From NCBI GenBank assembly GCA_949482135.1, contig CASYFC010000003.1:1-64000 (forward strand): DNA of 64,000 nucleotides. The letters are read 5' to 3'. Below the pieces are notes generated by a model. The model made no database searches. It was given only the letters and a program-made list of their open reading frames with translations, and was not told the DNA's origin. The DNA is from an uncultured Clostridia bacterium. Lineage in GTDB: Bacteria > Bacillota > Clostridia > TANB77 > CAG-508. The translations under genes and the position numbers were made by a program. Of this stretch, positions 16,207-16,453 are shown piece by piece; position 1 is the stretch's first letter, and each line of letters opens with the position of its first letter.

Positions 16207-16281
16207 ATGATGGTAATAGCTGTAAGTCTTGGCGCTGTACACACACACACACACACACACACACACACGGTATTAGTTTAA
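16207..16281 (+). CDS. Leader ORF with His-Thr repeat from (AC)15
   Basis: A 24-codon ORF, MMVIAVSLGAV then alternating His-Thr, ending VLV. It has the ribosome site AAAGGAAA 8 bases upstream of the ATG. In the 4902-aa paralogue the same promoter and ribosome site lead straight into the adhesin ATG, so this ORF occupies the adhesin start position. Its frame stops at 16279-16281, 44 bases before the hairpin at 16326. A shift of one AC unit would instead let translation run to TAA at 16377-16379, inside the right arm of the hairpin. The third frame stops at 16274-16276. Proposed role: a phase-variable leader controlling read-through; translation itself is unproven. Confidence 0.6.
   Translation: MMVIAVSLGAVHTHTHTHTHTVLV
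16239..16268. repeat. (AC)15 microsatellite
   Basis: Fifteen perfect AC units lie inside the leader ORF. The 3' flank GTATTAGTTTAATAG is nearly the same as that of the first CA tract at 13-42, so the two tracts and flanks share an origin. Confidence 0.95.
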
Positions 16282-16325
16282 TAGAAGAAAAAAGGGTAGA
16301 TAACATCTACTCTAAAAATGCTGTA

Positions 16326-16391
16326 AATAGACTTTTATTTAGCAAACAAAAACAAAATCTAGGATTGTTTGTTAAGTAAAGGTCTATTTTT
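16326..16391 (+). terminator. Strong hairpin terminator between leader and giant adhesin 1
   Basis: A 22-bp stem without mismatches (16326-16347 with 16367-16388, three G-U pairs) and a 19-base loop are followed by a T run. It sits between the leader ORF and the adhesin ATG at 16454. It would stop most transcripts unless prevented, so it behaves like an attenuator. Confidence 0.8.
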
Positions 16392-16453
16392 GTTGTGTTT
16401 AAAGCTACACGAAAACTAGTAAAAATACAGAAGAATGGAAGGAAGAGATTAAA

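Follow-up and report, generated by a model that had tools for sequence, protein, structure and literature searches.

A candidate phase-variable, translation-dependent attenuator with an AC repeat upstream of a giant surface protein gene in an uncultured Clostridia bacterium and its relatives

Introduction

How could a dinucleotide repeat influence the expression of a gene whose reading frame it does not enter? This question is raised by a locus of an uncultured Clostridia bacterium, in which a short leader ORF runs into a perfect (AC)15 array upstream of a gene coding for a 4336-aa protein. The stretch of DNA analysed here, referred to as the window, comprises the first 64 kb of contig C3 in a 2.02-Mb draft genome, and all coordinates given for the locus are window positions. 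In phase variation of the Haemophilus, Neisseria and Campylobacter type, changes in simple repeats alter a coding frame, and in trp-type attenuation terminator formation depends on where a ribosome stands on the leader. In the Discussion of Danne et al. (2014, PMC3894217), coding-frame phase variation by simple repeats is listed and trp-type transcription attenuation is summarised.

An earlier note on this DNA proposed that both principles are joined at this locus, with repeat length switching a terminator by way of the leader frame, and stated that no such case was known. The latter claim has to be withdrawn, as a system of this kind was published in 2014 for the pil1 and pil3 loci of S. gallolyticus (Danne et al., 2014, PMC3894217). 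According to this paper, the pil1 leader peptide gene contains GCAGA repeats. Expression is low when there are 22 repeats, in which case 39 bp (figure legend) or 49 bp (text) separate the leader end from the terminator; with 21 or 23 repeats, the leader ends 4 bp before or within the terminator and expression is high. Where the stop preceded the terminator by 28 nt or more, pil1 isolates mostly showed low expression; where it lay just before, within or past the terminator, expression was high. The support reported there comes from repeat variants, terminator deletion and leader start-site mutants; removal of the terminator raises transcription and removal of the leader start lowers it, and pil3 is reported to work like pil1. 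In the open-licence PMC literature, no description of AC-array attenuators in Clostridia was found, and among the matches listed for the joined mechanism, PMC3894217 alone stood out. The mechanism itself is already known; what appears new here is the family-wide scale, the AC tract, the conserved box that precedes it and the use of one cassette with several outputs.

Results

A leader ORF, an AC array and a terminator-like hairpin precede the 4336-aa gene

In its present frame, the leader ORF extends from 16207 to 16281 on the + strand, with ATG codons at 16207 and 16210 and a stop at 16279-16281. It is preceded by a putative ribosome-binding site, AGAAAGGAAA (16190-16199, + strand), which was scored as a Shine-Dalgarno-like match. 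Translation from 16207 yields MMVIAVSLGAVHTHTHTHTHTVLV up to the stop codon, in which the perfect (AC)15 array (16239-16268, + strand), the presumed switch, is read as His-Thr. Behind the array, the motif GTATTAGTTTAATAG (16270-16284, + strand) closes two frames, by TAG at 16274-16276 and TAA at 16279-16281, and leaves the third open. This open frame (16266-16379, + strand) encodes HGISLIEEKRVDNIYSKNAVNRLLFSKQKQNLGLFVK, 37 residues from the array end to the TAA at 16377-16379, and is connected to the leader start with 14 or 17 units only (units = 2 mod 3). By frame count, arrays of 12, 15 or 18 units lead to the stop at 16279, arrays of 13 or 16 units to that at 16274 and arrays of 14 or 17 units to that at 16377; 15 units would accordingly represent the off state. 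The early stops lie 10 nt (15 units) or 5 nt (16 units) past the array and end 43 and 48 nt 5' of the left arm of a terminator-like hairpin, and the long-frame stop lies inside its right arm. The leader with its own ribosome site entering the array, the present-frame stop and the single alternative frame reaching the right arm had all been described in the earlier note, and translation and frame count agree with it on each of these points.

The hairpin (16325-16389, + strand; arms 16325-16353 and 16362-16389, 26 pairs, -26.5 kcal/mol) resembles an intrinsic terminator and has a T run at 16387-16391. It had been given as a 22-bp hairpin at 16326-16388; the hairpin is indeed present and its extent is slightly longer. 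Folding of 16269-16400 gave a z-score of -6.39, and none of 200 shuffled sequences was equally stable. This hairpin was not called a terminator by a simple promoter/terminator scan of 15200-16600, which also detected nothing promoter-like on the + strand from 15911 to the leader. An Rfam search of the window returned a tRNA only. Between the array and the terminator-like hairpin, folding revealed a 9-bp hairpin (hairpin 1, 16293-16313, + strand) with counterparts in relatives. No antiterminator pairing was seen by eye at this leader. By analogy with trp-type leaders, we conjecture that hairpin 1 might act as a pause signal, which would let the ribosome catch up.

The putatively regulated gene (16454-29464, + strand; ORF call and domain search) codes for a surface protein with SpaA, Cna_B and MucBP domains. 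Its ATG at 16454 is preceded by a ribosome-site-like GGAAGGAAGAG and lies 74 nt downstream of the end of the open leader frame, and no leader frame joins the gene. The window thus contains a leader ORF with a ribosome site, a repeat unit that is not a multiple of three, a predicted terminator between leader and gene, early stops that precede the hairpin by 28 nt or more and a long-frame stop within it. Read from the DNA, this anatomy matches pil1, as described in PMC3894217, in every respect testable. Two further genes in the window code for giant proteins with SpaA domains, 10182-15242 (1686 aa, with a thioester (TED) domain in addition) and 29706-44414 (4902 aa); arrays of the AC type precede only the 4336-aa gene and the ORF at 90.

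A second array in the window is fused to a coding region

Neither hairpin 1 nor a second array, (CA)15 at 13-42, was mentioned in the earlier note. The contig begins 12 nt before this second array, which together with GTATTAATTTAATAG occupies 13-57 (+ strand); GTATTAATTTAATAG is the post-array motif of the 16239 site with one change. The open frame of the second array enters a signal-peptide-like stretch and continues into a SpaA/Cna_B protein (ORF 90-2318, + strand; ORF call and domains), which points to one module with two uses within 16 kb. TTG 90 sits within the signal-peptide-like stretch, and the true start of this ORF is probably located beyond the contig end. Here, the repeat lies in the frame of the downstream gene, which is not the case at 16239, and the second array is, judged by its frame, the coding-frame (classical phase-variation) version of the cassette.

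AC arrays behind a conserved box are widespread in the family

The pattern D(AC)8 was present in 31 of 53 genus genomes, the genome of the window included; arrays beginning with C were matched in the genus only by the window's first array, that at 13-42. Across the family, T(AC)8 occurred in 66/145 sampled genomes and in 27 of the 39 sampled genera. Both searches require pure arrays of at least eight units and miss shorter or interrupted ones. Two family genomes contain 54 and 22 pure AC arrays, the former being the 1.4-Mb draft G414, in which stops at +2, +10 and +36 were found in 13/15 fetched leaders (L251-L279, odd numbers). An exact-pattern scan of viral contigs gave no match, one of genome contigs, from which the genome of the window was perhaps excluded, matched three contigs of the sister genome CAOJJB01 (G016) only, and a similar exact pattern matched only G000 and G016 among 385 genomes of the order. 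The post-array motif differs among species, which accounts for the small number of exact matches; the sister genome has this motif in common with the window.

Directly before the array at 16239 lies a box, GCTGTAAGTCTTGGCGCTGT (16219-16238, + strand), which fits the consensus of 167 aligned upstream regions. For the 20 nt before the array this consensus is GCTGAAA(G/C)CCTTGNGGCTGT, with the strongest conservation at A-15, A-14, T-10, T-9, G-8, G-2 and T-1. The frame in which the box is read differs in some leaders, and the box may therefore act as nucleic acid. Genome G061 has two box-array units in tandem inside one leader (L136 and L137). Within 120 nt upstream, promoter-like sites with at least 10/12 matches were found for 47/104 leaders compared with 39/520 shuffles, and sites with at least 11/12 matches for 23/104 leaders compared with 0/520 shuffles.

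The three-frame layout recurs in relatives

For the genus, 102 stretches outside the window together with the window gave 107 distinct arrays of at least seven units, copies with identical flanks being dropped. At least 150 nt of downstream sequence was available for 87 sites, which were divided into a fused class (open frame of at least 400 nt; 15 sites) and a non-fused class (72 sites). Since a local-fold terminator finder had missed hairpins within larger folds, the first 260 nt were instead screened for unbranched hairpins carrying a U tract, of which the best was taken. With a cut-off of -13.5 kcal/mol, which was set after the energies were known, such strong hairpins were found at 51/72 non-fused sites, 1/15 fused sites and in 4/174 dinucleotide-shuffled segments. 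The 21 non-fused sites without a strong terminator include some that are cut off, some with hairpins outside the limits (e.g. L139) and three with overlapping starts, besides sites of none of these kinds.

One site, L134, was set aside by the distance rule, as its hairpin starts 176 nt out, leaving 50 sites. At all 50, the open frame reaches the hairpin or ends no more than 13 nt from its left arm; 300 shuffling rounds that left the hairpin position unchanged gave 23.4 such sites on average and never more than 34. After removal of similar sequences, the open frame reached the hairpin at 39/39 sites (shuffles: mean 18.2, maximum 27). When the distances reported for pil1 were applied, the other frames stopped 28 nt or more short of the hairpin in 93/100 cases, and the long frame ended inside the hairpin, past it or no more than 4 nt ahead of it at 49/50 sites. 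All of these distances were observed together at 42/50 sites and at 33/39 non-redundant sites, compared with a shuffle mean of 8.1 and a maximum of 16 in 1000 rounds. Permutation of the hairpin positions across these 39 sites left the relation intact at 28.6 sites on average and at up to 33, the number also observed, because hairpin positions are almost constant. The relation between frame and hairpin is thus a near-constant layout and not tuned site by site. Hairpin sequences vary across genomes, and the stop remains in or beside them (e.g. L124, L164 and L167).

Upstream of the terminator, the segment that follows the array folds to -5 kcal/mol or better at 40/50 sites, with a mean z-score of -2.3 against mononucleotide shuffles; several of the 50 sites have no stable structure in this segment (e.g. 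L159, L188, L197, L199 and L202).

A similar picture was obtained outside the genus, with limits looser than the pil1 distances used within it. From other genera, 30 loci were returned, one per genome, with 31 sites: eight were too short, two fused, 15 had a strong terminator and six were classed as other. The open frame came within 6 nt of the hairpin or went further at 14 of these 15 hairpin sites, and at 12/15 the two other frames also ended 20 nt or more short of it. In the array-rich genomes G414 and G256, 30 loci gave 31 sites, of which two were too short and 29 had a strong terminator; the open frame extended to within 6 nt of the hairpin at 27/29, and the stops of the other frames fitted as well at 22/29. 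The proposal that repeat length switches a terminator via the leader frame is supported by this recurrence, which is well above shuffled sequences in relatives and extends to loci from other genera, and by its match to the experimentally established S. gallolyticus mechanism (PMC3894217).

Predicted states and array lengths

With the leader start assigned to the ATG that has the best ribosome site, we predicted 16 on, 33 off and one without a call for the 50 genus hairpin sites. The fused class gave three on, 11 off and one without a call, and the remaining 22 genus sites seven on and 15 off. For other-genus loci with a hairpin call (21 of 31 sites), three were predicted on, 17 off and one had no call, and for G414 and G256 (29 of 31 sites) the numbers were five, 23 and one. 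Drift of the frame alone should leave roughly a third of the sites on, in agreement with the genus hairpin sites; off predictions are overrepresented in the fused class and in the other genera.

Array lengths in the genus range from 16 to 53 nt, with leaders placed in differing frames. No second copy of the 16239 locus was found and hence no length variation was seen there; both arrays of the window are exactly 15 units long. The clearest difference between copies comes from L141 and one of the two L213 arrays, which are identical over 500 nt upstream and 97.5% identical over 1502 nt downstream and carry arrays of 16 and 24 nt, respectively; the pair stems from different genomes (G062 and G071) in a set with one genome per species, and has no strong terminator. 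In genome G023, 10/12 arrays are exactly 27 nt long, which is odd for freely slipping tracts and counts against free drift. Within 60 nt of a contig end lie 18/107 arrays, a position that fits length mixtures but also assembly breaks caused by the repeat.

Genes downstream of the arrays

A Pfam scan was run on 74 downstream proteins from 82 rows, excluding repeats and some far or short genes and using the first 800 residues of the 4336-aa protein. Forty-one families were matched; among the 25 listed were BspA-type leucine-rich repeats (eight members), acyltransferase (six), glycosyltransferase family 2 (four), Listeria-Bacteroides repeats (four), subtilase (two), type I restriction specificity (two) and SpaA (one). 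No recognisable amino-acid biosynthesis family was among these 25 of 41 families from the 74 proteins. For most G023 sites, this set took a gene located far downstream. A search for small ORFs in G023 found peptides of 28-39 residues at 10/12 AC leaders, approximately 150-510 nt past the arrays (L145, L146 and L149-L154). These peptides have a Y-x-x-P-x-x-x-x-G pattern, which, we presume, resembles leaders of ribosomally made modified peptides, and the small ORFs possibly encode phase-variable peptide products. In G414 and G256, the first ORF contains a stretch such as GITLIALVITIIVLLILAG, which we take to be of a prepilin-like family, at 6/15 and 5/15 fetched loci, respectively; at the remaining loci a short ORF, another gene or no gene was found. 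Three sites in G062 and G071 (L141 and L213) lack a strong terminator, and their leader stop overlaps the start codon of the following gene; they may represent a translational-coupling version of the cassette.

Discussion

We consider it likely that the segment around 16239 is a phase-variable, translation-dependent transcription attenuator, as had been proposed before. In such a mechanism, the short leader ORF would be translated into the AC array, where slippage during replication would change the number of units in living cells and hence the leader frame. Two of the frames would bring the ribosome to a stop within about 10 nt of the array end; it would leave, so that the terminator could fold and transcription would not proceed into the adhesin gene. 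A ribosome reading the remaining frame would trail RNA polymerase across hairpin 1 and the terminator's left arm before stopping in the right arm; with a ribosome at this position the hairpin could not form, and the adhesin gene would be transcribed. Such a mechanism requires that the ribosome follows the polymerase closely. As stated in PMC13323073, RNA polymerases outpace ribosomes in some bacteria, among them B. subtilis, and a polymerase outrunning the ribosome would weaken the coupling on which the attenuator depends.

One alternative is that translation of the long frame acts after transcription, by stabilising the mRNA or feeding the next start, with the hairpin acting on RNA decay. The three sites of G062 and G071, at which leader stop and next start overlap without a strong terminator, are in keeping with this idea, and because of this overlap coupling may be another output of the cassette. 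At 16239, however, the leader stop and the ATG are 74 nt apart and the latter has its own ribosome-site-like sequence. In addition, the hairpins have U tracts, which the search rule requires, and equally strong hairpins with such a tract were rare in shuffled segments (4/174). For the 16239 locus we therefore regard a post-transcriptional switch as unlikely. The array could also encode N-terminal residues of the regulated protein, with the hairpin being incidental. Such a fusion is real elsewhere, at the 15/87 genus sites, the window's first array included, where the frame stays open for at least 400 nt into an ORF. No frame connects the leader at 16239 to the 4336-aa gene, and strong terminators abound in the non-fused class but hardly occur in the fused one, which makes coding-frame variation very unlikely at this locus.

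The array is read as His-Thr in the present frame, and a leader followed by a terminator resembles the layout of amino-acid attenuators, so that an (HT)n peptide might stall the ribosome when histidine or threonine is short. Against this, genus arrays vary from 16 to 53 nt with leaders in differing frames, and the downstream families listed (25/41) include leucine-rich repeats, acyl- and glycosyltransferases and SpaA, without recognised amino-acid biosynthesis. At 16239 the array ends 56 nt before the left arm, so that a ribosome stalled within it would sit approximately 56 nt or more before the hairpin, and the gene downstream codes for a surface protein. Histidine or threonine sensing was rejected on these grounds and retains very little probability. 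Although assembly can distort array length and 18/107 arrays lie close to contig ends, a neutral microsatellite next to an ordinary terminator by chance is hardly credible given arrays in 27/39 sampled family genera, the conserved box in 167 aligned sites and a frame-hairpin relation far above shuffles.

The proposed attenuator has features of two classical types of regulation. As in the coding-frame systems of Haemophilus, Neisseria and Campylobacter, slippage would flip a reading frame; at 16239, however, only the leader frame changes and the frame of the regulated gene stays constant, whereas the window's first array is of the classical kind. As in trp-type attenuation, the ribosome position on the leader would set the terminator; there the signal is amino-acid supply, here it would be the length of a DNA repeat, without an antiterminator pairing visible by eye. 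The closest relatives are pil1 and pil3 (PMC3894217). Common to these and, judged by its sequence, the window are the leader ORF with a ribosome site, a repeat unit that is not a multiple of three, an early stop that leaves, or in the window would leave, the terminator free and a shifted frame that reaches the hairpin. Both also lie upstream of surface genes, as pil1 and pil3 control surface appendages and the window leader precedes a surface protein. They differ in that pil1 and pil3, as described in that paper, are two pilus loci with GCAGA pentamers, whereas here AC dinucleotides follow a conserved box and occur throughout many genera of one clostridial family, with up to 54 arrays per draft genome, often with extra structure before the terminator and with the box-array unit also fused to coding regions.

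Tentatively, and knowing that it may well prove wrong, we propose that the 20-nt box and the AC array form a shared cassette that came to lie upstream of dozens of unrelated genes of surface, pilin-like, sugar-modifying and small-peptide type throughout the clostridial family. Attenuation would be its main output, with coding fusion or start-codon overlap as alternatives, and the box would act at the nucleic-acid level, in slippage, gene conversion or ribosome loading. If this is true, some 1.4-Mb genomes hold more than 50 independent random switches. If the attenuator works as outlined above, a mechanism found described for one streptococcal species group would be a major form of surface-protein regulation in an uncultured clostridial family. 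The on/off state of each gene would be predictable from DNA alone, so that the switching of surface proteins in uncultivable organisms could be followed in metagenomic reads. The cassettes would also provide a natural test of how tightly ribosomes trail RNA polymerase in Clostridia.

Two further repeats were observed in the window upstream of the leader. A 50-bp direct repeat at 15308-15414 (2.1 copies, 96% matches) lies 5' of a 164-aa ORF at 15466, and directly after this ORF (15466-15960) a long inverted repeat was seen by eye at 15960-16030, which is perhaps its terminator.
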